In this document: positions 14,090 to 58,510 of the stretch, in pieces
Layout of the letters: each line of letters opens with the position of its first letter
Numbering within the stretch: position 1 is the first letter of the stretch
Source of the DNA: Beijerinckiaceae bacterium
Lineage (GTDB): Bacteria; Pseudomonadota; Alphaproteobacteria; Rhizobiales; Beijerinckiaceae
DNA length: 64,000 bases
NCBI GenBank assembly: GCA_947475995.1
Contig: CANJNI010000010.1
Span: 1-64,000, forward strand
Direction of reading: 5' to 3'
Position numbers and translations under genes: made by a program
Notes under the pieces: model-generated
Told to the model about the DNA's origin: nothing
The model's database searches: none
Seen by the model: only the letters and a program-made list of their open reading frames with translations

Positions 14090-14962
14090 ATGCCCGATCT
14101 TCGCTATGAGGCTCCCGGCAGTCTGGCGGACGCCGTCAGAATGCTGGCCGCAGCCGGGGGGCCGACACGGATTCTCGCAGGCGGCACGGATGTGATCGTC
14201 CAGATGGAAACCGATCTGATCGAGCCCGAACTGCTGATCGACATCAAGAAGATCCCCGGCCTGCACACAATCACGGCCGAAAACGGCGGCTTCCGCATCG
14301 GCGCGGCCGTCAGCGCGATGAAGATGATGGATCACGCGGCGCTGTGCGCAACCCATCCGGGCATCATCGAAGGCGTGAAGCTCATCGGCTCGATCCAGGT
14401 CAAGGGCCGCGCCACCGTGGCGGGCAATCTCTGCAACGCCTCGCCCGGCGCGGACAGCGTGCCGCCCATGATCACGGCAGGCGCGATTGCGCGCGTCACC
14501 GGACCGAACGGATCGCGCGACGTGCCGGTCGAACAGATTCCGGTTGCTCCCGGCAAGACCTCGCTGGCGAAGGACGAGATCATCGAGTCCTTCTTCCTCC
14601 CCGCTCTGCCGCGTAATTCGGGCGGCGCCTATCAGCGCTTCACGCCCCGGACCGAAATGGACATTGCGGTGGTGGGCGTTGCGGTGAATCTGACGCTGGA
14701 TGGCGCCGGCGTCTGCACTGCAGCCCGCGTGGCGCTCGGCGCTGTCGGCCCAACCGTCGTCGTCAGCGACGAATGCGCCCAGGCATTGATCGGCACGAAG
14801 GTCGATGAAGCGGCGCTCGAAAAGCTGGCCGCCGCCGCCAGCGCCGCCTGCCGTCCCATCGACGACAAGCGCGGCACGAAGGAATTCCGCATCAAGGTCG
14901 CCGCTGTTCTGGCAAGGCGCGTGGCCCAGCAGGCGCTCGAACGCGCGAGGCACATCGCATGA
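14090..14962 (+). CDS. Molybdenum hydroxylase FAD-binding (medium) subunit
   Basis: A 290-residue subunit of the xanthine dehydrogenase/CO dehydrogenase superfamily. FAD-contact motifs ILAGGTD (28-34) and TVAGNLCNASPGAD (about 109-122) are present. It passes electrons from the iron-sulfur subunit to an acceptor. A GGAG site precedes ATG 14090. Gene order medium-small-large is the coxMSL order, but the large subunit lacks the CO dehydrogenase motif. It overlaps the next gene by 4 bases. Confidence 0.88.
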   Translation: MPDLRYEAPGSLADAVRMLAAAGGPTRILAGGTDVIVQMETDLIEPELLIDIKKIPGLHTITAENGGFRIGAAVSAMKMMDHAALCATHPGIIEGVKLIGSIQVKGRATVAGNLCNASPGADSVPPMITAGAIARVTGPNGSRDVPVEQIPVAPGKTSLAKDEIIESFFLPALPRNSGGAYQRFTPRTEMDIAVVGVAVNLTLDGAGVCTAARVALGAVGPTVVVSDECAQALIGTKVDEAALEKLAAAASAACRPIDDKRGTKEFRIKVAAVLARRVAQQALERARHIA

Positions 14963-23905: not shown

Positions 23906-23930
23906 AACGTTGAGGCAGCGGCTGCGTTCC
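23906..23930 (-). promoter_or_regulatory. EcfG promoter upstream of the DUF1236 gene
   Basis: Reading the minus strand, GGAAC (23930-23926), 16 bases, then CGTT (23909-23906). This exactly matches the alphaproteobacterial general-stress consensus. The expected transcript start is near 23899, giving a leader of about 80 bases before ATG 23816. The box lies just beyond the 3' end of ecfG. Confidence 0.85.
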
Positions 23931-23947
23931 AGTCTTCCGGAAAATAC

Positions 23948-24502
23948 TCAAGACACGCGAGAGGGAGCGCGGATCAGAACGCCTGTATTCACTGGGTCCG
24001 GCCCAATATCCTGCACACCGTTGAGCGAAAGTAGTTCTGCGAGCTTGGCGCGCGCGCGATTGAGCCTGCTCTTAATCGTGCCGGTCGGCACACCGCAGAT
24101 CTCCGCAGCTTCTTCGTAGGACATTTCGGCAATGCCGATCATCACCAGCACCTCGCGATGCTCCGGCGACAATTTCTCCAGCGCTTCCCTGAACTCGTTG
24201 AGCTGCAGCCGGCTGCCCTGCTCGGCGCCAACTGACAATGTCTTGGCGTAGGCGCCGTTTGGATCAGGCACTTCACGTTTCATCTTGCGATAGCTTGAAT
24301 AGAAGCTGTTGCGCAAAATCGTCACGAGCCAACCGCGCAGATTGGTGCCCTGCTGGAAAGAACCGAAATTCGCCCATGCCTTGACGAGGGTTTCCTGCAC
24401 CAGATCATCGGCCGTCGTCACCGAACTGGTCAACGACACCGCATAGGCGCGCAGGAACGGAATTTCAGCGACGAGGAGATCACCTTGCGATCGGTCCGTC
24501 AT
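23948..24502 (-). CDS. ecfG: ECF sigma factor EcfG (general stress response)
   Basis: A 184-residue sigma factor with region 2 (about 12-80, TADDLVQETLVKAWANFGSFQ and NLRGWLVTILRNSFYSSYRK) and region 4 (about 105-160, LSPEHREVLVMIGIAEMSYEEAAEICGVPTGTIKSR). In alphaproteobacteria EcfG is held by the anti-sigma NepR and released when phosphorylated PhyR binds NepR. All three genes are here: nepR overlaps it by 4 bases upstream and phyR is divergent. It should recognise GGAAC-N16/17-CGTT, the motif found repeatedly around it, including before its own operon. Confidence 0.93.
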   Translation of the reverse strand: MTDRSQGDLLVAEIPFLRAYAVSLTSSVTTADDLVQETLVKAWANFGSFQQGTNLRGWLVTILRNSFYSSYRKMKREVPDPNGAYAKTLSVGAEQGSRLQLNEFREALEKLSPEHREVLVMIGIAEMSYEEAAEICGVPTGTIKSRLNRARAKLAELLSLNGVQDIGPDPVNTGVLIRAPSRVS

Positions 24503-24756
24503 TTCGATTGACCTTTTTTGCGCTCCTCGGCCTCCAGTTTCGCAAGCAGCGAAAGAAACTTGTCCGGCACCGGCGATTTGATGATATCGTTGCAGTAATC
24601 CTTCAAGGCTGAGCCGATGACCTCCTGCACCGCATAGTCAAGCTGAACAGGAATTTCCGCGTTGATATCATCCGCCGCATCGTCCGCAGTTACGACGCGC
24701 GAGTCCCCGAGACCGATTTGCACGATGAAAACTTCCTCACTGCCGGAGCGATCCAT
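24499..24756 (-). CDS. nepR: Anti-sigma factor NepR
   Basis: An 85-residue protein. The C-terminal half has the NepR signature of two helices that clamp the sigma factor (IGSALKDYCNDIIKSPVPDK, then FLSLLAKLEAEE). Its position directly before ecfG, with a 4-base overlap, is diagnostic. I start it at ATG 24756, because the EcfG promoter at 24797-24821 puts the transcript start near 24790, downstream of the alternative TTG at 24795. The N-terminal part is longer than in some NepR proteins. Confidence 0.88.
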   Translation of the reverse strand: MDRSGSEEVFIVQIGLGDSRVVTADDAADDINAEIPVQLDYAVQEVIGSALKDYCNDIIKSPVPDKFLSLLAKLEAEERKKGQSK

Positions 24757-24796
24757 CACGTCGATGCGAACGTGAAAACTTGGCCGATGCGTCAAT

Positions 24797-24821
24797 AACG
24801 TTCATCGGCCTCATTAGTTCC
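24797..24821 (-). promoter_or_regulatory. EcfG promoter upstream of nepR-ecfG (autoregulation)
   Basis: On the minus strand GGAAC (24821-24817), exactly 16 bases, then CGTT (24800-24797). A perfect match to the consensus in the nepR/phyR divergent region, as expected for positive autoregulation of the sigma factor operon. Confidence 0.92.
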
Positions 24822-24912
24822 GCTTGCGAAAATATCTTTTTCGGTTGCTTGACCGACCAAGTCGCGCGCGCGCAATGTGCTGCCACAACTATGCTTTTAA
24901 GGAGCAGAACGC

Positions 24913-25704
24913 ATGTCCGTTGCCCAGGAAATCGCGCCGCATCTACCTTATCTTCGTCGTTTTGCGCGCACCCTGTCGGGCTCCCAGCCGGGAGGCGATG
25001 CTTATGTGATCTCCACGCTGGAAGCGCTTGTGGCGGATCCTTCGTCCTTTCCTCGCGACGTCCCGGCGCGCATCGGACTTTACCGCACATTCGTGAAGCT
25101 CTGGTCCTCTGTGCCGTTGAACGGCGTCGCAGACTCTCCCGACGTCATTGCGGCCGCGCAGCGGAACCTGAATTTGCTCACGCCGCTATCGCGTCAGGCC
25201 TTCCTGCTTCGCACCGTCGAAGGTTTCTCTCCGCGCGAGGTTTCGCAGATCCTTCAGGTTGAAGAGAGCGAGATCGACGATCTGATCGACGCAGCGGGAC
25301 GCGAAATCGCCATGCAGGTCGCCACCGATGTTCTGATCATCGAGGACGAGCCTGTCATCGCGCTCGACATTGAATCCCTGGTCAAGGATCTCGGTCATCG
25401 TGTGGTCGGAATTGCGCGAACGCACAAGGAAGCTGTCAAGATTGCGGACGCCACGCGACCTGGACTCGTTCTGGCGGACGTTCAACTCGCGGACGGCAGC
25501 TCCGGCCTTGACGCCGTGAACCAGATCCTCGGCAGCTATGAAGTCCCGGTCATTTTCATCACTGCATTCCCCGAGCGCCTGCTGACCGGGGACCGTCCGG
25601 AACCGGCTTTCCTCATTGCAAAGCCGCTCGGAACCGAAGTCGTCAAGGCCGCGATCAGTCAGGCCCTTTTCTTCGATCGTCGCGCCTCACGCCGCGCAGC
25701 CTGA
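24913..25704 (+). CDS. phyR: Response regulator PhyR (anti-anti-sigma)
   Basis: A 263-residue two-domain protein. The N-terminal sigma-like domain (about 1-135) mimics EcfG, and the C-terminal receiver (about 138-255) holds the phospho-acceptor D189 (LVLADVQLADG) and K237 (IAKPLG). On phosphorylation the sigma-like part binds NepR and frees EcfG. AAGGAG precedes the ATG. It is divergent from nepR-ecfG and closed by a strong terminator. No EcfG box was found ahead of it. Confidence 0.95.
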   Translation: MSVAQEIAPHLPYLRRFARTLSGSQPGGDAYVISTLEALVADPSSFPRDVPARIGLYRTFVKLWSSVPLNGVADSPDVIAAAQRNLNLLTPLSRQAFLLRTVEGFSPREVSQILQVEESEIDDLIDAAGREIAMQVATDVLIIEDEPVIALDIESLVKDLGHRVVGIARTHKEAVKIADATRPGLVLADVQLADGSSGLDAVNQILGSYEVPVIFITAFPERLLTGDRPEPAFLIAKPLGTEVVKAAISQALFFDRRASRRAA

Positions 25705-25708
25705 AGCG

Positions 25709-25738
25709 AAAACGCGGGCCGAAAGGCCCGCGTTTTTT
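25709..25738. terminator. Intrinsic terminator after phyR
   Basis: A 10-base-pair stem AACGCGGGCC (25711-25720) with GGCCCGCGTT (25725-25734) and a GAAA tetraloop, followed by TTTT. The flanking A-tract allows it also to end the convergent LuxR-type gene. Confidence 0.9.
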
Positions 25739-25756
25739 GACCCCGAAAAGCAGATG

Positions 25757-26089
25757 CTATCGCGCACCTGCGCCCATCGAACCGGAAGAGTTCGCGTTCT
25801 GAATCATCGACAGATCGATCGAACTCCACGCAGCAAACAATGCAAGACGCGCCAGGGCCGGAAGCGATTTTGACCCCGTGCGCTTCATTATGGCCGCGCG
25901 ATGCTTTTCAACTGTTCGCTGGCTGATGCCGAGATCCGCAGCGATATTCTTGCTGGGGTGTCCCTCAAGAACGAGATCCATGATCTGACGTTGCCGTGGC
26001 GTCAATGCGGCCACATTGTTGGCGGCCTTTTCCCGCCACAGCGACAACTGCGACAGGTCCCATTGAATCTCCCTCTCCGGTGTTCCCAT
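25757..26089 (-). CDS. Stand-alone LuxR/FixJ-type DNA-binding protein
   Basis: A 110-residue protein. Its only domain is a C-terminal-type LuxR helix-turn-helix at about 27-85 (LTPRQRQIMDLVLEGHPSKN, then IAADLGISQRTVEKHRAAIM). There is no receiver or ligand domain; the first 25 residues may be a dimerisation or contact arm. It is convergent with phyR and preceded by a perfect EcfG promoter, so it is probably a second-tier regulator of the stress response. Target genes are unknown. Confidence 0.85.
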   Translation of the reverse strand: MGTPEREIQWDLSQLSLWREKAANNVAALTPRQRQIMDLVLEGHPSKNIAADLGISQRTVEKHRAAIMKRTGSKSLPALARLALFAAWSSIDLSMIQNANSSGSMGAGAR

Positions 26090-26150
26090 TAGTCATTCTC
26101 CTGTAGCTGAGCCCGAGACTCCCCTTGGGGGTGACTGGAGCCTGAGAGAA

Positions 26151-26175
26151 AACGGGGAAGGGGACGGAAAGTTCC
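26151..26175 (-). promoter_or_regulatory. EcfG promoter upstream of the LuxR-type gene
   Basis: On the minus strand GGAAC (26175-26171), 16 bases, CGTT (26154-26151). It is a perfect match about 62 bases before the ATG at 26089, giving a leader of roughly 55 bases. Confidence 0.87.
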
Positions 26176-26225
26176 CCTACCGAGCGGTATTTTCCGAGCG
26201 GCATTGCCGCCTAATTGCGGCAGCG

Positions 26226-26250
26226 GGAACCTCGGCATGGTGCAAGTGTT
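26226..26250 (+). promoter_or_regulatory. Near-consensus EcfG promoter upstream of the 101-residue ORF
   Basis: GGAAC (26226-26230), 16 bases, then TGTT (26247-26250) instead of CGTT. Spacing and -35 are perfect and the -10 differs at its first base. The distance to ATG 26280 fits a short leader. It is divergent from the perfect promoter of the LuxR-type gene. Confidence 0.5.
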
Positions 26251-26279
26251 AACATCCGGTTTCAATGCACGGAGTCGCT

Positions 26280-26585
26280 ATGTTGACGATCATTGTGGGC
26301 AAGCAACTTCCGGTGGCGCCCGTCGAAGCATTGATGCAGGCCTCCGGTGCGACCCGATATGTCTGTGTCGACGACTTCGAAGCTGTCCGGTGGATCGTCA
26401 ATGACGCGAGCCCCGCGTGTCTGCTGATCGTTGACGCCGAGCACGCCAGTCCGCAGCAGATCAATGCGCTTCCGGCGAACGTCAACTGCATGGTCACCAA
26501 TGCTGCTGCGCTGCAGTCGGGCGAATTTGCTGCAGCTTTCATTGCGGACTGCAATGGCCGTTCGACCACGGACGAAGCGGCATAA
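26280..26585 (+). CDS. Hypothetical protein in the stress locus
   Basis: I do not recognise this 101-residue protein. It is acidic, Ala-rich and cytoplasmic (no signal peptide or membrane segment). The alternation of hydrophobic strands and helices (MLTIIVGKQLP, TRYVCVDDFEAVRWIV, ACLLIVDAEHA, NCMVTNAAALQ) recalls a receiver-like or Rossmann-type fold without a conserved phospho-acceptor. ATG 26280 follows GGAG and is preferred over ATG 26265. It lies between the phyR block and the membrane-stress operon and may be EcfG-dependent. Confidence 0.55.
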   Translation: MLTIIVGKQLPVAPVEALMQASGATRYVCVDDFEAVRWIVNDASPACLLIVDAEHASPQQINALPANVNCMVTNAAALQSGEFAAAFIADCNGRSTTDEAA

Positions 26586-26613
26586 AAAAGCCCGCGTCGC
26601 TTCCGACGCGGGC
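26584..26613 (-). terminator. Intrinsic terminator after the DUF883 gene
   Basis: On the minus strand a GCCCGCGTCG/CGACGCGGGC stem (26613-26590) is followed by TTTTTT (26589-26584). It ends the stress operon that runs from 28259 down to 26638. Confidence 0.85.
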
Positions 26614-26637
26614 GCCGCCACGTTCCGTCCGGAAGCT

Positions 26638-26955
26638 TTAGCGTGACCGGTTCATCAGTCCGAACGTAACGCCCAGGCCGAAGGCAACCGCCAGTGCAAT
26701 GCCGGGGTTGCGCTCCACATAGCTTTCAAGCTCACCGCCTGCACTCTGCAGCTTCTGCTGTGCATCCGACATGGTTCCAGACAGACGATCGCGGGCGTCA
26801 TGCGTGGCGCGCGTGATCGTATCGGTCGCGGAACTCGCCTGCTGCTGGACAAGCTGCGTCATCGACGTCGCGAGCTTCGCCACATCGTCGCGCAGCGTGG
26901 CGAGGTCGCCGGAAATATCGACTGTCGAAGATTTCATATTATCGACGTTGCTCAT
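26638..26955 (-). CDS. DUF883/YqjD-ElaB-type membrane-anchored protein
   Basis: A 105-residue protein starting at ATG 26955 after GGAGG. It is a long amphipathic helical region (about 10-75) rich in Ala, Thr, Asp and Gln, then a single C-terminal membrane helix (PGIALAVAFGLGVTFGLM) ending in RSR. In E. coli YqjD and relatives are inner-membrane, ribosome-associated stationary-phase proteins under RpoS. Here it is the last gene of an operon that begins with an EcfG promoter. Confidence 0.85.
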   Translation of the reverse strand: MSNVDNMKSSTVDISGDLATLRDDVAKLATSMTQLVQQQASSATDTITRATHDARDRLSGTMSDAQQKLQSAGGELESYVERNPGIALAVAFGLGVTFGLMNRSR

Positions 26956-26973
26956 ATGTGCCTCCAAGGAAAG

Positions 26974-26998
26974 GCCGGCGACGCTTTGCGCCGCCGGC
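26974..26998 (-). other. Intercistronic hairpin between csbD-like and DUF883 genes
   Basis: GCCGGCG (26974-26980) pairs with CGCCGGC (26992-26998) around a short GC-rich loop. With no T-run it is more likely an RNA stability or processing element than a terminator. Confidence 0.4.
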
Positions 26999-27020
26999 GT
27001 GATGAGTGAATCGGACCTGC

Positions 27021-27221
27021 TTAGCGGTTGCGGTCGTACCAGTCGGTTACGGCCTTCTCCGCCTGCTCCTTCGAATAGCCGTACCGTTCCTGGACACGTC
27101 CGACGAGCTGCGTCTGCTCGCCTTCGATCACCTGCATGTCGTCGTCGGTGAGCTTTCCCCATTCCTTCTGGGCCTTGCCCTTCAACTGCTTCCAGTTTCC
27201 CTTGATCTGATCCCAATTCAT
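27021..27221 (-). CDS. CsbD family stress protein
   Basis: A 66-residue protein starting at MNWDQIKGNWKQLKGKAQKE, the classical CsbD signature, and ending in a short linker and VTDWYDRNR. CsbD proteins are small, hydrophilic and abundant under general stress (sigma-B regulon in Bacillus). Their activity is unknown. The start at ATG 27221 is chosen because upstream codons are not family-like. It sits in the EcfG-controlled operon. Confidence 0.92.
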   Translation of the reverse strand: MNWDQIKGNWKQLKGKAQKEWGKLTDDDMQVIEGEQTQLVGRVQERYGYSKEQAEKAVTDWYDRNR

Positions 27222-27244
27222 ATTCAGCTCCTGTGTTGGCCCCA

Positions 27245-27265
27245 TCCGGCGCATTTTGCGCCGGA
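27245..27265 (-). other. Perfect intercistronic hairpin before the csbD-like gene
   Basis: TCCGGCGCA (27245-27253) and TGCGCCGGA (27257-27265) form a 9-base-pair stem with a 3-base loop between the 298-residue membrane-protein gene and the csbD-like gene. No U-tract follows on the minus strand. It may set different mRNA levels for the two sides of the operon. Confidence 0.5.
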
Positions 27266-27275
27266 CCGGGGCGGG

Positions 27276-28172
27276 TTAGATTTCGTCCCTGTGGTGGCCG
27301 CCGTAGGCGCTGCCCACACTCGAGATGAAGGCGCCGACGACGAGCGACAACACGAGCATGAAAGCCGTTGTGGCCCCGGCCTTTCGGGCCTTGTCGGCAG
27401 CTTCTTTCGCCTGCGTCTTGGCATTGTCGACGCGAGTCAGAACCTGATCCACGCGCTGGCGCGATTCAGCTTCGCTCATGCCCGTACGCGAGGCCACGAG
27501 TTGCGCCAGGTAGGCCTTGTCTTCATCGGGGATTGTGCCGTTGACAGCGCCGGCCGCCAGTATGCGCCCAGCCTCGGCATTCGACGCCGCCACGTCAGCG
27601 GTCGCCGATGTCGTCCCCGCCGCTCCACGTCGAAACAGCATGTCAACGAAATAGGCCGACGGATTTGCCGCACTGTCGCCCTGTGACGAGCCCGCGCGGT
27701 TGCCAGCGCCCTGGGCGGCGCCCTGCGCAGCTCCACCCGTGACGCTTGTCACGGCCGAACCGACGCCGCTGGCGATGCCCGTCACCGCGCTGGTCAAAAC
27801 GCTTGCAACCAGAATGGTCGCCAGCGCCCATGCCAGAAAGCCATGGGCCGTGTCACGAAAATAGACTTCATCGGTATGGACGATGCTGCGCGTGCGCAGC
27901 CGTCCCGCCACATAGCCCCCAAGCGCCGAAGCGATCCATTGGATCGCCACCACCGCCACACCTGTGCTCACCGCAAAGGTCGTGACGCTCGCGCCCGAGC
28001 CGCTCCATGGCGACACGATGGTCAACCCCAGAGCAGACGCCAGCACGGTCAGGACAAGCGAGACTGCCACCATGGTGATAGCGCCCGCCACGATGGCTCC
28101 CCATGCTGTTGCGTCCCCATCGCGCGTATGTGCTGCGGGGTCCGGCGCATGTCGTATGTCGCTCAAGCTCAT
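27276..28172 (-). CDS. Hypothetical multi-pass membrane protein of the stress operon
   Basis: A 298-residue protein. About four to five hydrophobic segments are visible (about 23-52, 62-90, 108-140 and 268-290). A soluble loop (about 150-265) contains Gly/Ala-rich and helical stretches such as DKARKAGATT. The family is common in Rhizobiales next to CsbD-type genes, but I know no function. AGGAGG before ATG 28172 overlaps the stop of the 25-residue peptide gene, suggesting translational coupling. It is likely EcfG-regulated as part of the operon. Confidence 0.75.
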   Translation of the reverse strand: MSLSDIRHAPDPAAHTRDGDATAWGAIVAGAITMVAVSLVLTVLASALGLTIVSPWSGSGASVTTFAVSTGVAVVAIQWIASALGGYVAGRLRTRSIVHTDEVYFRDTAHGFLAWALATILVASVLTSAVTGIASGVGSAVTSVTGGAAQGAAQGAGNRAGSSQGDSAANPSAYFVDMLFRRGAAGTTSATADVAASNAEAGRILAAGAVNGTIPDEDKAYLAQLVASRTGMSEAESRQRVDQVLTRVDNAKTQAKEAADKARKAGATTAFMLVLSLVVGAFISSVGSAYGGHHRDEI

Positions 28173-28181
28173 GCGCCCCTC

Positions 28182-28259
28182 CTAGCGAAAGAGGAAAGCG
28201 AGGAGCAGGATGATCGGAATCGGCACGCCCAGCAGCCACAAGAGTATTCCGCGACCCAT
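28182..28259 (-). CDS. 25-residue single-helix membrane peptide
   Basis: ATG 28259 follows a strong GGGAGG site. The product is almost only one membrane helix: MGRGILLWLLG, then a PIP turn, then ILLLAFLFR. It begins the EcfG-controlled operon and its stop lies 9 bases before the next start. Because it is too short for most gene callers it may be unannotated in related genomes. The strong ribosome site, coupling and a perfect promoter argue that it is real. Confidence 0.7.
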   Translation of the reverse strand: MGRGILLWLLGVPIPIILLLAFLFR

Positions 28260-28290
28260 TTTCAACCTCCCGTGAAGGATACGCCATGCT

Positions 28291-28315
28291 AACGTGAGCA
28301 GGCCCGTGCGGTTCC
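28291..28315 (-). promoter_or_regulatory. EcfG promoter of the membrane-stress operon
   Basis: On the minus strand GGAAC (28315-28311), 16 bases, CGTT (28294-28291), a perfect match 32 bases before the ATG of the 25-residue peptide gene. It would transcribe the peptide, the 298-residue membrane protein, the CsbD-like and DUF883 genes down to the terminator at 26584. Confidence 0.88.
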
Positions 28316-28511
28316 GGTCGAGACGGTGCGGCTTATGCGCAAGCGCGGCAAAACCTTGCTGCAACGCTTTAAAAATTGATTCCATTTTAAGCATGTCTTG
28401 TTTAAATGACGTCGATTCGCTCTACATGCGCATGCGTTGTCGGTTAACGCCGAGGCGACAGAGCAGCAATAATCATCCGGTGTCATTCGAGCCAGATGGG
28501 CAGGAGGAGCC

Positions 28512-29999
28512 ATGGAATTCCTTCGCAACAGCGAAGCTATCCGGGCGGATCAGAAAAACGGCGGACGAGTCTGGAAGCATTTTTTCCAGACTACTGACGG
28601 CGCCGTAGCGACGCCTGCGGTGCCTCACGTCGTCGAGACGGTTCTACAGTACTGCCCGGACATTGATCCCGAGCAAGTCGCGGCGTTCCGCCGCGCGGTT
28701 GAAGCGAGCCTGCGGCGCAATAATTCATTCTGCGAAACCTACAAGGCCACGAGCCGCGCCGAGGAACCGGCGCGCTGGATCGAGGCCAGCGGCAGTCTCC
28801 AACGCCTGGCGGATGGCGCCATAGAGCTGGTCGGCATCTCGGTCGATGCATCCGCGCGCATGGCGAGCGAGGGTGAATTGCAACGGCGTCTCCGGCAGCA
28901 GACGGGAATCGCACGCTTCGGCACGTATGCGCTCGGTGAAAGCGATATCGATCGGATCGTGCAGCGCGCAGCGGAAACTGCTGTGGAAATTCTCGACGTT
29001 CCGCTCGCGAAAATTCTTCAGCTTTCGCCACATGACGGCTCCATGTTTTTCAAGGCCGGCGTTGGCTGGCGCGAGGGACTCGTCGGACAGTCCACATTCG
29101 AGATTGCCCTCACGTCGCAGGCCGGCTTCACGCTCATCAATGATGGTCCTGTCATCGTTGAGGATCTTCTCGCCGAAACTCGATTTGCCTGCCCCCCCAT
29201 GCTGCACGAGCATCATGTCCGCAGCGGAATGAGCGTCATCATTCCCGGACATGGCGCACAGCCGTTCGGCGTGTTCGGCGTCTTCTCTCGAGAACTTCGC
29301 AGCTTCGACGAAGCGGATATCGATTTTCTCGTGTCCATCGCCAATGTCATCGCCAACAGCGTCAGGCATAATGCGTCCGCTGTTCAGCAGTCATTGCTCA
29401 TTCGTGAACTGGTTCATCGCGCCGGCAACATGTTGCAGGTGGTGAGCTCCATCGCGAACCAGACCCTTGCGCGCGATCCGTCAACCAGCCCGGAGCGAGC
29501 ACAGTTCACCGAACGTCTCGCGGTGCTTGGCCGCGCCAACCATCTTGTGGCAGACGGTGGATGGACCACCACGCGCCTTGCATATTTCGCTGAAAATATT
29601 CTTCGGCCCTGGCTCCCCCGCCTGAAATTGCATGGCGCTGACATATTGCTCCCTGCTGATCTTTGCTTTGACCTTGGCTTGATCCTTCACGAGATCGCAT
29701 CGAACTCGCGCCGCTTCGGCGTACTCGGCTCGCAGGAAGGCGCGATCCGGGTAGACTGGACCTTGCTGGCGGGCCCGGACGCGGCGGATCTCTTCAGCTT
29801 TGTTTGGGAGGAATCGACCCCGACGCGCCATCGCACCGAACGCGGATTTGGATCGCGGCTGTTTCAGGCCGTCATCGAACGCAAGTGGGGCGGCTTGGTG
29901 CACGAGACGCGCAGCGACGTCTACCGCTTTGCTTTCGACGTACCGGACGTCAGCACTGCGACTGCCGGAAAGGCCTGGACTCTTCCGGGCATCAATTGA
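28512..29999 (+). CDS. HWE-family histidine kinase with PAS-like and GAF domains
   Basis: A 495-residue soluble kinase. An N-terminal PAS-like segment (about 40-120) precedes a GAF domain (about 135-285), an HWE phospho-acceptor region with His302 (RELVHRAGNMLQ) and an ATPase domain with N398 in the N-box (LHEIASNSRRFGVL), the W432-x-E434 motif and the GFGSRLF glycine box. HWE kinases commonly feed PhyR. The absence of membrane segments suggests cytosolic sensing. The H-box reads HRAGN where HRxKN is usual. GGAGGAG precedes the ATG. Confidence 0.87.
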   Translation: MEFLRNSEAIRADQKNGGRVWKHFFQTTDGAVATPAVPHVVETVLQYCPDIDPEQVAAFRRAVEASLRRNNSFCETYKATSRAEEPARWIEASGSLQRLADGAIELVGISVDASARMASEGELQRRLRQQTGIARFGTYALGESDIDRIVQRAAETAVEILDVPLAKILQLSPHDGSMFFKAGVGWREGLVGQSTFEIALTSQAGFTLINDGPVIVEDLLAETRFACPPMLHEHHVRSGMSVIIPGHGAQPFGVFGVFSRELRSFDEADIDFLVSIANVIANSVRHNASAVQQSLLIRELVHRAGNMLQVVSSIANQTLARDPSTSPERAQFTERLAVLGRANHLVADGGWTTTRLAYFAENILRPWLPRLKLHGADILLPADLCFDLGLILHEIASNSRRFGVLGSQEGAIRVDWTLLAGPDAADLFSFVWEESTPTRHRTERGFGSRLFQAVIERKWGGLVHETRSDVYRFAFDVPDVSTATAGKAWTLPGIN

Positions 30000-30000
30000 C

Positions 30001-30025
30001 GGAACAAGCCCATTCAGCGCTCGTT
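30001..30025 (+). promoter_or_regulatory. EcfG promoter with no protein gene behind it
   Basis: GGAAC (30001-30005), 16 bases, CGTT (30022-30025), beginning 1 base after the kinase stop codon. The transcript would start near 30031 and end at the terminator at 30133. The next protein gene (DUF3309) is on the other strand. Confidence 0.85.
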
Positions 30026-30030
30026 GATAT

Positions 30031-30133
30031 GCATGCCCTCGAACGGGCATAGCTTTCCGGCACTGCCGGAGAGCGCCCTCTCGGGCGTTTCCTCCCCTCG
30101 ACTTCACCGGGGCCTCGGCCCCGGTCTTTTTTT
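30031..30133 (+). ncRNA. Candidate EcfG-dependent small RNA, about 103 nt
   Basis: Between the EcfG promoter and the terminator lie three short stem-loops: ATGCCC/GGGCAT (30033-30038 with 30045-30050), CCGGC/GCCGG (30057-30061 with 30065-30069) and CGCCC/GGGCG (30074-30078 with 30083-30087). A single-stranded stretch TTTCCTCCCC follows (30088-30097) that could pair with Shine-Dalgarno sequences, then the terminator. Size, promoter class and C-rich unpaired bases resemble stress sRNAs such as Caulobacter GsrN and rhizobial anti-SD sRNAs. Expression is not shown. Confidence 0.6.
30106..30133 (+). terminator. Strong intrinsic terminator (sRNA candidate and kinase gene)
   Basis: ACCGGGGCC (30106-30114) pairs with GGCCCCGGT (30117-30125), then C and seven T (30127-30133). 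Confidence 0.92.
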
Positions 30134-30145
30134 GTCCTGAATACA

Positions 30146-30175
30146 AAAAGGGAAGCGCCGCAGCGCTTCCCTTTT
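30146..30175. terminator. Terminator after the DUF3309 gene
   Basis: AAAAGGGAAGCGC and GCGCTTCCCTTTT arms around 30158-30163 form a long stem, with A-tract and T-tract on the outside. On the minus strand it follows the DUF3309 stop at 30196. Confidence 0.8.
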
Positions 30176-30195
30176 CTTCAGTTCTGACAGTGCAG

Positions 30196-30354
30196 CTATA
30201 TTCGGCCCATCAGGAGCAGAACGATGATGATCAGCAGCAGCAGGCCGAGACCTCCGCTTGGAAAGTATCCCCAACCCGAACTGTAAGGCCAGGTCGGGAG
30301 CGCGCCGATCAGCAGTAGAACGAGAATGATCAGCAGTATGGTGCCGAGACTCAT
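30196..30354 (-). CDS. DUF3309 small membrane protein
   Basis: A 52-residue protein starting at ATG 30354 after AGGAGG. Two membrane helices (MSLGTILLIILVLLLIGALP and GLGLLLLIIIVLLLMGRI) flank the signature TWPYSSGWGYFPSGG, which identifies DUF3309. Such peptides are widespread in Proteobacteria and their function is unknown. The gene begins 33 bases after the lipoprotein gene stop, so the two are probably cotranscribed. Confidence 0.92.
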   Translation of the reverse strand: MSLGTILLIILVLLLIGALPTWPYSSGWGYFPSGGLGLLLLIIIVLLLMGRI

Positions 30355-30387
30355 TGGCTTCCCCTCCTCACGAGTAAAGCCTGATCA

Positions 30388-30642
30388 TCAGCGACGGCAA
30401 ACGGTCCGGCCGCTCCGCGTCACGTAACAGCCACGCGGACGAGTCGCGTCCGCAATGACGGCGCCGCCGACTGCGCCGATGGCGCCGCCCGCAAGCGCAC
30501 CGCCCGCAGTGCCGGTGGCGACGCCGCCGACAACTGCGCCTGCCGCGCCACCCACGGCCGCGCCGGTGAGGACGCGATCATCGCGCGCCGAACATGCGCC
30601 GAGCGTGAGCGCAAGAGCGGATACAACGAGAATCTTATTCAT
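30388..30642 (-). CDS. Glycine-zipper lipoprotein (SmpA/Omp16-like fold not evident)
   Basis: An 84-residue protein with a signal peptide ending in a lipobox LGAC (Cys at about 17) and then a long Gly/Ala/Val zipper (about 26-64) expected to insert in or pack on a membrane. The tail has two cysteines (GCYVTRSGRTVCRR). It resembles YMGG/glycine-zipper outer-membrane lipoproteins. ATG 30642 has GGGAGCC close upstream. No EcfG consensus was found before it. Confidence 0.8.
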   Translation of the reverse strand: MNKILVVSALALTLGACSARDDRVLTGAAVGGAAGAVVGGVATGTAGGALAGGAIGAVGGAVIADATRPRGCYVTRSGRTVCRR

Positions 30643-30930
30643 AGGTGGCTCCCTTTTCGAATTTGAATCCGGCTCCGGGGAAATTCCGCAACCGGGGATG
30701 CAATGTGGAATATTGAAGGCGGGCGACCCGAAAACAGGTCGGAATTTACGGCAGCGTTTTGTTTTGTCCTCTGCATGCAGAACGAGAGCAGGAGAAACTA
30801 AAGCGTGACCGCCATTTTGTTGCATTCCTGCAACGGCGTTTTACAAGCGCGCTGCAAAGGCGTGGCAGCCGGAACTGCTTTCCGTCTCGTTGGTTCCTTG
30901 CTCGTGAGGAACTTACTGAGAGGTTTTGTA

Positions 30931-31665
30931 ATGAAGAATTTCATCGCGTCTTCGCTGGGCGCCGTCGCGATGGCGACCAGCGTCACCGCAATGGCGGCCG
31001 ATCTGCCGTCCCGTGTGGCTGCCCCCGCGCCGGTCCTTGCGCCCGTCGCTGTCGCCTTCTCATGGTCCGGCTTCTATGCCGGTCTGAACGGTGGTTATGG
31101 CTGGAACAACAGCCGCTGGTCGCCCTCCGCTCCGCCGGTGTTCGCGACCTTCCGGGCCGATGCCGACGGCTTCGTCGGCGGCGCGCAGGTCGGCTTCAAC
31201 TGGCAGATGGGTTCTCTCGTCGCCGGTGTCGAAGGCATGCTCGACTATTCGGACATGTCCGGCAGCGCACAGTGCTCCACATTCGCCGGCACTGTTTGCC
31301 GCACGCGCCAGGATTGGCTCGGCGACATCAACCTGAAGCTCGGCTTCGCGGTCGATCGCGCCCTCATCTACGGAACGGGCGGTATCGCATTCACGAACTT
31401 CAAGCTGACGCAGCCTGTCGGAGCCCCTCCGGCTAACTTCGGCAGCCATTCGCGCACCGGCTGGACGGTTGGCGTGGGCATCGACTACGCCCTGACCAAC
31501 AACTGGGTCGCAGGCCTGCAGTACAAGTACTATGATTTCGGCAGCTTCAACTCGACTGCCGCCGGAACCAACGTGCGCTTCCGTGAAACCGATCGCGTGC
31601 TGCTCGCCAAGATCAGCTACATGTTCGGCGGACCGTCGACCTCTGGCGTCGTCGCGCGCTACTAA
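30931..31665 (+). CDS. Outer-membrane beta-barrel porin, Omp25/31 family
   Basis: A 244-residue protein with a signal peptide (about 1-22, ending AMAADLP) and an eight-stranded barrel of the Omp25/OmpA-like family. Visible signatures are SWSGFYAGLNGGYGWNNSRW at the mature N-terminus, VGFNWQMGSLVAGVEG, the alternating aromatic strands and the C-terminal LLAKISYMFGG followed by VVARY. Rhizobiales encode many paralogues that stabilise the outer membrane. It is monocistronic with a terminator and a leader of more than 100 bases. Confidence 0.9.
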   Translation: MKNFIASSLGAVAMATSVTAMAADLPSRVAAPAPVLAPVAVAFSWSGFYAGLNGGYGWNNSRWSPSAPPVFATFRADADGFVGGAQVGFNWQMGSLVAGVEGMLDYSDMSGSAQCSTFAGTVCRTRQDWLGDINLKLGFAVDRALIYGTGGIAFTNFKLTQPVGAPPANFGSHSRTGWTVGVGIDYALTNNWVAGLQYKYYDFGSFNSTAAGTNVRFRETDRVLLAKISYMFGGPSTSGVVARY

Positions 31666-42464: not shown

Positions 42465-43532
42465 CTACTTGCCGGTGTCGTAGTACTTGCGAAGCGTCGC
42501 AACTTCATGCGGACGCACCGTCGCAACCGATCCCATGATCCGCTTGGCGTCGTCCAGCGTCGCCAGTTCGGGTCCGAAGCCTGTCGCCTTCATGTAGAAG
42601 TCGACGAATTCCGGCTCCGCGACAGCCTTCGCATAGGCATCCCGCAGGATCTGCAACTGGTCCGGCGCAACGCCCGGCGGCGTCGCCAGAATGTAGATCA
42701 TGTTGGCCACCATGTTCGTGTAGAAGTTCAGCGTGTCGAACAGGTCCCCGCTCGGCAGCTTGCCGTGGATTTCCTTGTAAAGATCAATCAGGCAGGGCGT
42801 ATCCTTGATGAAGTCAGCGCGCTGGATCTCGCCCTTGTCATCCATCGTGCAGAAATAATAGCCCGGCATCAGTTTGCCGGCGCGGATTTCCGGGCCGGAC
42901 CGGCGCACGATGGTCGCATAGGAATTGTTCAGCACGTCGATTTCGCTGCGCACCAGCGCGAGAAACGATTCCGCCCCATTGCCATAACCGCTGACCATCT
43001 TGTAGTTCGCGCCGAGAAGGTCGAGGCTCATGCGGTTCAGCATGTCCTGTGCGCCGTTGAGGCTGGTGCCGCCGACGACGAGATTTGGAACCTTCACGAT
43101 GTCGGCCGGTTTGTCGATGCGCGGCGTCACATCGCGACGGACCACGATGCCGCGCGTGTCCGCGCCTGCGCCGATGATGCCCATCTTGTCATATTGCGCC
43201 TTGAGTTCCGGCAGTTTCAGGATCTGCGCAATCGGAAACCAGATGCCGTAGTAGAGCGTCTTCGCGTCCGGCTTCGCCACTTCGTAAATATAGTTGGTGG
43301 CGTGCATGCCGCTGCCGCCCGGCATGTTCTGCACCACCACGGTCGGCTGACCCGGCAAATGGCGACCCAGATATTGCGCGATCTGACGCGCGTTCGTGTC
43401 CATCGTACCGCCCGGCCCGCTGCCCACGATGATGGTGATCTGGTTGCCTCGCGCGCCCTGCGCCTGAGCAGCGGCCGGAGCGAATGCGATGGCGGCCGCC
43501 GACAGGGCCGTCAGCAGAAAGCGATTGAACAT
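42465..43532 (-). CDS. Bug/TctC-type periplasmic binding protein 1
   Basis: A 355-residue protein with a signal peptide (about 1-24, ending AQAQG). Bug-fold signatures are ITIIVGSGPGGTMDTNARQI, VVVQNMPGGSGMHATNYIYE and LVVGGTSLNGAQDML. These receptors bind carboxylates, amides or other small acids for TctAB-type transporters. No tctA or tctB gene is present in the window, so it would act with membrane subunits encoded elsewhere or as a sensor. It lies between two MmgE/PrpD genes. Confidence 0.9.
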   Translation of the reverse strand: MFNRFLLTALSAAAIAFAPAAAQAQGARGNQITIIVGSGPGGTMDTNARQIAQYLGRHLPGQPTVVVQNMPGGSGMHATNYIYEVAKPDAKTLYYGIWFPIAQILKLPELKAQYDKMGIIGAGADTRGIVVRRDVTPRIDKPADIVKVPNLVVGGTSLNGAQDMLNRMSLDLLGANYKMVSGYGNGAESFLALVRSEIDVLNNSYATIVRRSGPEIRAGKLMPGYYFCTMDDKGEIQRADFIKDTPCLIDLYKEIHGKLPSGDLFDTLNFYTNMVANMIYILATPPGVAPDQLQILRDAYAKAVAEPEFVDFYMKATGFGPELATLDDAKRIMGSVATVRPHEVATLRKYYDTGK

Positions 43533-57496: not shown

Positions 57497-58510
57497 CTAC
57501 TTGCCGTTGAACGTCGCCAGAATATCCTCGATCTGCTTCACCACGGCCGGCGGCGTGCTGGCGGCGCGCTCGACGACCTTGGCAAGCGCAGCGCCGTCGA
57601 TCGGCGAATCGAATTCAAGCCTCATGCGCGTCACATCGTCCTTGAATCCCTGATCCGTCACGACCTTCATGAAGGCTTCGCGGAACAGCGCAAGTTGCGC
57701 GGGCGCAATGCCGGGCGGCGCCAGATAGGGACGCGCGATTTCGCCGCGCACACGCATGAAATCGAGAATCTGGCGTTCTGTGTCGTTCTTCGCCAGATCG
57801 CTGAAGAGCGGGACGTCCTTCAATTCGGGATGCGGCGTCGCGCCATGCTGGAAGATCACCTTCACAAAGTTGCGTTCCAGCATGTCCGTGGCCTTCAGCG
57901 ATCCCCAGGTGGTGCCGCCGGTGCCGTGAATCTCCCCACGCTCCATGGCGAGTTTTGTCTCGTCGCTGGTGCGATAGCCGGGAATGATCTTGAACTTCAG
58001 CCCGAACAGCTTCTGGCCGATGAGCGGAAGATCAATGCCGGTGCTGCCAAGGCTTGTGCCGCCAAGCACGACTTCGCGTGTCTTGGCTTCTTCCAGACTC
58101 TGTACCGGCGAATTCCTGGTGACATAGCCGATATAGGTGTCGCTCGATGCGTTGCCGATCCAGTTGAACTTCGTCACGTCGAAGTCCACCACCGTGGGCG
58201 ACAATTGCGGCGACGTCAGAACCGATCCATGCACGGCGCCGATCACGGTGCCGTCGCGCGGCGCGATATTGTAAAGATAGCTGGCTGCCCGGATGCCGCC
58301 GCCTCCGGGCATTTCCTGCACGATGATGCTGGGCTTGCCGGGAAGATAAGCAGGCATGTAGCGGGCCATCAGCCGCGCATAGGCCTCGTATCCGCCGCCG
58401 CCGCTCACCACGATCTTGATGACCTTGCCGGCGAAATTCGTATCCTGCGCCTGCGCCGGAAACGCTGCTGCGAGGCCACACGCCAACACGATTGCTGCGA
58501 GCTTCTTCAT
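57497..58510 (-). CDS. Bug/TctC-type periplasmic binding protein 2
   Basis: A 337-residue receptor with a signal peptide (about 1-21, ending PAQAQ). Bug signatures IKIVVSGGGGYEAYARLMAR, IIVQEMPGGGGIRAASYLYN and VVLGGTSLGSTG are visible. It differs from the Bug protein at 42.5-43.5 kb. No TctAB membrane genes are nearby. It lies upstream of the importer operon on the same strand (92-base gap) and divergent from the acyl-CoA synthetase gene. Confidence 0.9.
   Translation of the reverse strand: MKKLAAIVLACGLAAAFPAQAQDTNFAGKVIKIVVSGGGGYEAYARLMARYMPAYLPGKPSIIVQEMPGGGGIRAASYLYNIAPRDGTVIGAVHGSVLTSPQLSPTVVDFDVTKFNWIGNASSDTYIGYVTRNSPVQSLEEAKTREVVLGGTSLGSTGIDLPLIGQKLFGLKFKIIPGYRTSDETKLAMERGEIHGTGGTTWGSLKATDMLERNFVKVIFQHGATPHPELKDVPLFSDLAKNDTERQILDFMRVRGEIARPYLAPPGIAPAQLALFREAFMKVVTDQGFKDDVTRMRLEFDSPIDGAALAKVVERAASTPPAVVKQIEDILATFNGK

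Follow-up and report, generated by a model that had tools for sequence, protein, structure and literature searches.

When a promoter of the general-stress sigma factor lies directly behind the gene for a stress kinase and no protein gene follows it, what does it transcribe? The question is raised by a stretch of 64,000 nucleotides from a Beijerinckiaceae bacterium (assembly GCA_947475995.1, contig CANJNI010000010.1, positions 1 to 64,000), referred to below as the window, for which an initial annotation had proposed a small RNA (sRNA) under EcfG control.

The promoter behind the kinase gene

The features that define the locus are as follows:

23948..24502, - strand: EcfG-type sigma factor (Sigma70_r2/r4_2), 91% identical in G559, a genome of the same genus
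24499..24795, - strand: NepR anti-sigma factor (NepR, 31.2 bits), with an EcfG-type site upstream (24797-24821, - strand)
24913..25704, + strand: PhyR (PhyR_sigma2, PhyR_sigma-like, Response_reg)
28512..29999, + strand: GAF-HWE histidine kinase gene (Pfam HWE_HK, 45.6 bits, and GAF), immediately 5' of the sRNA
30001..30025, + strand: EcfG-type promoter, an exact match (GGAAC 30001-30005, 16-nt spacer, CGTT 30022-30025)

The stop codon of the kinase gene (TGA) occupies 29997-29999 and GGAAC begins after one intervening base, exactly where the initial annotation had placed a GGAAC-N16-CGTT element. The window contains five GGAAC-N16/17-CGTT sites against 0.81 expected, a number reached in none of 100 shuffles, and all five fall within 23906-30025, i.e. 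in the general-stress locus that comprises the EcfG, NepR and PhyR region. The sRNA locus thus carries the GGAAC-N16/17-CGTT promoter that characterizes the EcfG regulon, with a spacer of 16. The promoter had been called an orphan, and this description holds, as no protein gene directly downstream on the + strand is apparent in the list of open reading frames of the window; the nearest + strand frames are 30455-30808, which is antisense to a glycine-zipper gene, and 30759-31436, which overlaps the frame of an outer-membrane protein at about 30.8-31.7 kb, downstream of the sRNA.

Two very short frames of this region may be recorded here. A seven-codon frame at 30029-30052 (MHALERA, stop) overlaps the first 5' hairpin of the RNA described below, has no visible ribosome site and is probably due to chance. 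At 28182-28315 (- strand) another EcfG site precedes a very short membrane peptide (MGRGILLWLLGVPIPIILLLAFLFR), for which a Pfam scan gave no match; a counterpart of both the site and the peptide is present in G559.

Family membership and predicted fold of the small RNA

The RNA expected from this promoter comprises the following elements, none of the two 5' hairpins having a homologue that we could find:

30031..30133, + strand: predicted primary sRNA transcript, about 103 nt, with the 5' end inferred from the promoter
30033..30050, + strand: 5' hairpin 1, AUGCCC-UCGAAC-GGGCAU
30052..30074, + strand: 5' hairpin 2, GCUUUCCGGC-ACU-GCCGGAGAGC
30068..30140, + strand: match to the alpha-r8 / suhB / MmgR family (RF00519), 49.8 bits (gathering cut-off 41), E 3e-7 in the window
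30075..30086, + strand: family hairpin before the seed, GCCC-UCUC-GGGC
30088..30097, + strand: seed UUUCCUCCCC, identical to the family 10-mer UUUCCUCCCU in nine of ten positions, the last base being different
30106..30133, + strand: intrinsic terminator, an 8-bp stem with a 4-nt loop followed by C and seven T (30127-30133)

The Rfam search, which the initial annotation had suggested as a check, supports a structured sRNA above the family cut-off and reveals what that annotation had missed, namely membership in RF00519, with a match that spans the full model (1-77). Our own covariance model, built from 34 of 52 alpha-r8 copies, also gives 49.8 bits, a score that is partly a matter of construction because the sRNA under study is among the 34. 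In the alignment, 95.3% of cells in the family hairpin and the terminator are paired, and changes on both sides occur in 7 of 12 pairs, a count biased towards the terminator columns, as the RNAalifold consensus used to define them came from this very alignment. None of 500 shuffles scored as high on any of five measures, and all slid versions scored lower. A lack of covariation in the stems had been named as grounds for abandoning the sRNA; the family core, the part for which homologues were found, does covary.

The genome encodes three alpha-r8 copies, on contig C25 (70.6 bits), in the window (49.8 bits) and on contig C3 (49.5 bits). The first adjoins genes for an FGase and an inositol monophosphatase, and the last adjoins MscL and AbrB-family genes. 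Linkage to the FGase gene is described as a feature of the usual alpha-r8 copy in the available text of PMC12559287, and it is seen at C25 and not at the window copy; since the same text places Caulobacter alpha-r8 paralogues away from the usual location as well, we do not hold this against family membership. The family is nearly ubiquitous in the sampled bacterial family, being detected at E 0.001 in 146 of 149 genomes and above the cut-off in 143 of the 149. We regard it as virtually certain that the sRNA gene is real.

The predicted fold agrees with this assignment. The 103-nt RNA (30031-30133) has a folding energy of -53.8 kcal/mol (z -5.4), which none of 200 shuffles equalled, and when the elements are folded singly, the three hairpins are matched by 0, 0 and 1 of 200 shuffles, respectively, and the terminator by 0 of 200. 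The three stem-loops and the unpaired stretch of the initial annotation are thereby borne out, as are the seven T of its terminator; the stem of the latter has eight pairs and a 4-nt loop, not the nine pairs given there. Two hallmarks of alpha-r8 RNAs, an unpaired 10-mer after a weak hairpin and a Rho-independent terminator, are both seen in the 103-nt fold, where TTTCCTCCCC (30088-30097) is unpaired. In a 66-nt form that starts at the Rfam boundary (30068), the GGAG of the 3' arm of hairpin 2 instead pairs with the CUCC of the seed, which is then partly closed. Judging from these predicted folds, the seed appears to stay open in the longer RNA because hairpin 2 binds GGAGAG into its stem. An alternative is offered by the consensus that RNAalifold gives for the 34 aligned copies, in which the GGG of the family hairpin pairs with the CCC of the seed and replaces the Rfam hairpin; the seed is then partly closed, and the family is thus compatible with more than the open-seed fold. 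Nor are foldable 5' sequences special in themselves, an idea we rejected: canonical copies have foldable stretches there too, and by 5' folding energy the sRNA ranks 5th among 44 anchored rows (of 51 rows in all, seven could not be anchored), within the range of the others. On the whole, the sequence supports the earlier claim that the PhyR-NepR-EcfG locus contains an sRNA gene preceded by an EcfG-type promoter, with an anti-Shine-Dalgarno stretch exposed in the predicted fold.

The position and the promoter recall known stress RNAs. According to the accessible text of PMC5869019, GsrN of Caulobacter is an sRNA dependent on the general-stress sigma factor, as we propose for the window sRNA, it has a conserved C-rich 5' loop and activates katG by pairing with the leader, its homologues typically lie near ecfG-nepR-phyR, and an EcfG-dependent sRNA next to the stress kinase is suggested there as a wider arrangement among GsrN-like RNAs. 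The window sRNA shares the EcfG site and the proximity to the phyR-ecfG locus; it is set apart by its 5' loops (UCGAAC and ACU) and by an open stretch that is the alpha-r8 seed and lies behind three hairpins. ReC64 of Rhizobium etli is described, in the available part of PMC3892343, as an 88-nt RNA downstream of tcrY, with a mapped start and mainly dependent on EcfG1. One could thus regard the window RNA as a stress sRNA of the GsrN or ReC64 type, alpha-r8-like only through the anti-Shine-Dalgarno stretch and the terminator, given that its place beside a stress kinase and its EcfG promoter resemble ReC64 and the GsrN-like RNAs. However, the RF00519 match is full-length and over the cut-off, a C-rich 5' loop is absent, and the suhB-like RNAs of R. 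etli named in the accessible text of PMC2881028 are ReC58 and ReC59, not ReC64. Such an identity is, in our opinion, very improbable. A different element, at position 14926 (- strand) of locus L127 in genome G125, has the appearance of a candidate stress sRNA like GsrN: a hairpin with CUUCCUCCCCC in its loop and a T run lie downstream of an orphan EcfG-type promoter, at a distance of no more than about 100 nt.

Upstream control, relatives and recurrence

Gel shifts have shown that PhaR (AniA) binds to the mmgR promoter of Sinorhizobium meliloti, reportedly as a repressor (available text of PMC12542648 and PMC7143759), and the core of its motif is given as YGCRNYGCR in the former. A motif fit upstream of the alpha-r8 copies, started from seed words picked by eye, yielded TTTTGTGC(A/G)GTGC, which contains this core. 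The comparison covered 51 copies, one each from the 30 best-scoring family genomes with loci and all 21 from six genus genomes, with one of them (L052) unanchored; the PhaR core occurs upstream of 38 of the 50 anchored copies, a fraction that is no unbiased census because the copies were selected, and in 163 of 1605 background windows of equal length from the same loci. Both sibling copies in the genome (C25 and C3) have the core upstream, and the window copy lacks it. Conversely, an EcfG site is found in one of the 50 anchored upstream regions, that of the window copy, and in 5 of the 1605 background windows. The PhaR core is also missing from 10 of the 20 anchored genus copies (the window copy included), so its absence is common among secondary copies. 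The nine further genus copies without it (L040, L043, L044, L045, L046, L047, L048, L050 and L051) may have had their promoters rewired in other ways. We consider EcfG control of the window sRNA likely from its upstream sequence.

Two other accounts of this arrangement have to be weighed. Transcription could pass through the kinase gene and an RNase could then free an alpha-r8 RNA of 66-77 nt from the 3' end of that mRNA, with the EcfG match acting as a mere booster or being irrelevant; hardly any intergenic space separates kinase and promoter, the site beginning one base past the kinase stop, and the Rfam boundary is 30068 rather than 30031. Against this, the promoter is exact and has the correct place and orientation, which the rarity of such sites in the background windows makes harder to dismiss, and the 66-nt form partly shuts its own seed. 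This origin seems unlikely to us. The EcfG match could also be fortuitous and the copy an alpha-r8 paralogue that landed between the kinase and DUF3309 genes and is silent or in decay. The frequent loss of the PhaR core in the genus fits such a history, as does the lack of conservation of the arrangement in relatives (see below), but the hairpins, seed and terminator are intact, the score exceeds the family cut-off, and four further exact EcfG sites accompany genes of the same locus. We judge decay to be improbable, and continue with the reading of an EcfG-driven alpha-r8 RNA.

The latter resembles MmgR of S. meliloti, the alpha-r8 (RF00519) RNA, in the family hairpin, the 10-mer seed (9/10) and the terminator, and differs from it in the lack of the PhaR core, the EcfG promoter, the two 5' hairpins that precede the family one and the position in a stress locus. 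As with SisA-D of Caulobacter crescentus, several alpha-r8 siblings with unrelated promoters and an anti-Shine-Dalgarno seed occur in one genome; unlike here, control by a stress sigma factor was not found for SisA-D in the available text of PMC12559287.

How old is the arrangement? Among 61 genomes searched with the kinase, one close relative was found beyond that of the window itself, in G559 (65% identical), and a kinase scan of the named genomes confirmed none. The stress locus of G559 is orthologous (EcfG 91%, NepR 50%, PhyR 81%, LuxR 77%, kinase 65%, DUF3309 75% and glycine-zipper protein 81% identical), and EcfG sites 5' of the LuxR gene and of the small membrane-peptide gene are common to both genomes. 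However, the distance from the kinase stop to DUF3309 is 99 bp there versus 196 bp in the window, and this gap contains neither an EcfG site nor TTTCCTCC. In the synteny comparison proposed in the initial annotation, G559 shares the stress locus and lacks the sRNA. On the strand opposite to the kinase, the G559 gap gives an Rfam match of 27.1 bits (L104) and a match to our model of 25.5 bits (E 0.0003; L123), which we read as the terminator of DUF3309 rather than as alpha-r8, as a terminator is present and TTTCCTCC is absent. Frames between LuxR and the kinase (26265-28172 in the window), including a CsbD-like gene, were unmatched by tblastn in the fetched G559 region. The simplest reading of these sequences is a gain of the sRNA and its stress promoter in the lineage of the window; a loss in G559 would be a possible alternative.

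A wider set of 40 PhyR regions (39 from relatives and the one around the second PhyR of the window genome, several of them clipped at contig ends), together with three regions round L053, L056 and L059, contained just two strong alpha-r8 matches to the model; L060, which is the L053 locus, scored 52.8 bits, and a copy at the L098 edge, some 9.5 kb away from PhyR, scored 44.4 bits, the next-best score being 21.1 bits. A strict regular expression found no match in the 40 PhyR regions, and the L098 copy was missed by the same expression. The second PhyR gene (G000:C12:11467-12237, L083) is 56% identical to that of the window, and the alpha-r8 model found nothing in the 19.9 kb around it. When the DNA of 29600-30400 was compared with plasmids, matches came from 15 records; among the matches listed, the DUF3309 part was covered and the sRNA was not.

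The composite pattern of an EcfG site and alpha-r8 occurs in 2 of 51 genus genomes, that of the window and G571, the latter being a chance match as judged by eye. In the sample of the bacterial family (gap 50-80) one genome of 149 has it, so that conservation lends no support to the promoter or the 5' hairpins. The search of the order (397 genomes, gap 20-50, SGTT) gave matches in seven genomes versus five for the reversed control pattern, and of the seven loci only L053 in G390 scores as alpha-r8 (46.2 bits); the remaining 10 of the 11 genomes in G390's family lack this type of composite. The search of the class (385 genomes, gap 28-58) gave one match versus one for the reversed control, and inspection by eye assigned that match to chance. 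The named genomes contain at least 113 such stretches, and among those scored with our model, in sets of 80 and 33, two are clear alpha-r8 RNAs, L175 in Methylobacterium soli (52.2 bits) and L202 in Roseicella frigidaeris (35.7 bits), with the next best at 20.4 bits; the PhaR core is present upstream of both and absent in L053. By rough arithmetic, chance alone would give about one composite in the scan of the named genomes and, for the order, about 0.2. Since L053, L175 and L202 together are close to this estimate, and recurrence of EcfG-driven alpha-r8 elsewhere does not exceed it, we do not claim recurrence.

Candidate targets and proposed function

The seed suggests where the RNA might act. 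The genome has 20 occurrences of the pattern GGGAGGAA-N4-11-ATG, corresponding to 18 distinct sites, versus three for the reversed pattern. Twelve of the 18 distinct sites start frames of more than 300 aa, and six precede only frames of 19-83 aa. Seven of the 12 long frames encode solute-binding proteins, one of them SBP_bac_5, one SBP_bac_8 and five TctC-like (of these, two exceed the Pfam cut-off, one falls short of it, and two lack a Pfam match yet are 32-41% identical to the others by BLASTP), and the other five encode EutA, a cupin, an ABC ATPase, a PEP-mutase family protein and an acetyl-CoA synthetase. Two candidates lie in the window:

57497..58510, - strand: candidate target with GGGAGGAA ahead of its ATG, encoding a TctC-like solute-binding protein, no Pfam match, 32-34% identical to the other four TctC-like proteins
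42465..43532, - strand: candidate target with GGGGGAGGAACC-ATG, encoding a sixth TctC-like solute-binding protein that shares 25-30% identity with the TctC-like queries

The enrichment may have another cause, namely that TctC genes are abundant here and have strong ribosome sites for unrelated reasons, and duplex energies of the whole RNAs do not favour the window copy over its siblings. In Caulobacter, SisA down-regulates genes of TonB-dependent receptors, a repression attributed to the shared 10-mer (available text of PMC12559287), which makes uptake genes plausible targets of the window sRNA. From the matching ribosome sites and this analogy we consider uptake mRNAs a plausible target set, with the chances evenly balanced.

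We propose, with somewhat more confidence, that the sRNA is a third, lineage-specific, trans-acting copy of alpha-r8 (MmgR/Sis), which lies in the stress locus, has exchanged control by PhaR, the regulator tied to carbon storage in most copies compared, for that of EcfG, and would repress uptake mRNAs under stress. Stress would activate the kinase, PhyR would titrate NepR, and the freed EcfG would transcribe the 103-nt RNA. The two added 5' hairpins would keep GGAGAG off the seed, so that UUUCCUCCCC remains open, and with Hfq the RNA would pair with the GGGAGGAA ribosome sites of the mRNAs for solute-binding proteins and related products and repress them. Such repression would lower nutrient uptake under stress.

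Several components of this scenario have been published: EcfG-driven sRNAs at stress loci, anti-Shine-Dalgarno pairing by alpha-r8 RNAs, and siblings with differing promoters. The expression of the phyR and nepR genes changes in a phaR mutant according to the available part of PMC6520949, which mentions the control of mmgR by a PhaR homologue elsewhere, apart from the mutant data, and the accessible text of PMC7204398 does not draw a link between MmgR and general stress. An EcfG-driven suhB/alpha-r8 sRNA was not found in the open-access literature searched, as far as its accessible text goes. The kind of sRNA is known, and the combination of alpha-r8 with an EcfG promoter appears to be new.

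It is tempting to generalize, although we do so tentatively and with less confidence than for the target set, that alpha-r8 siblings may serve as transferable anti-Shine-Dalgarno modules, moved from one regulon to another by an exchange of promoters; in this case PhaR would have given way to the general-stress sigma factor in the locus of the latter, providing a direct stress brake on uptake, with 5' hairpins that guard the seed. The redundancy of alpha-r8 siblings is a question left open by the Caulobacter work, to judge from the available text of PMC12559287, and it becomes testable with a copy whose trigger can be read from the promoter. If our proposal is correct, the window would contain a clear case of an sRNA sibling rewired between master regulators through replacement of its promoter, and the general stress response of Alphaproteobacteria would be tied to the control of solute uptake via a known seed.
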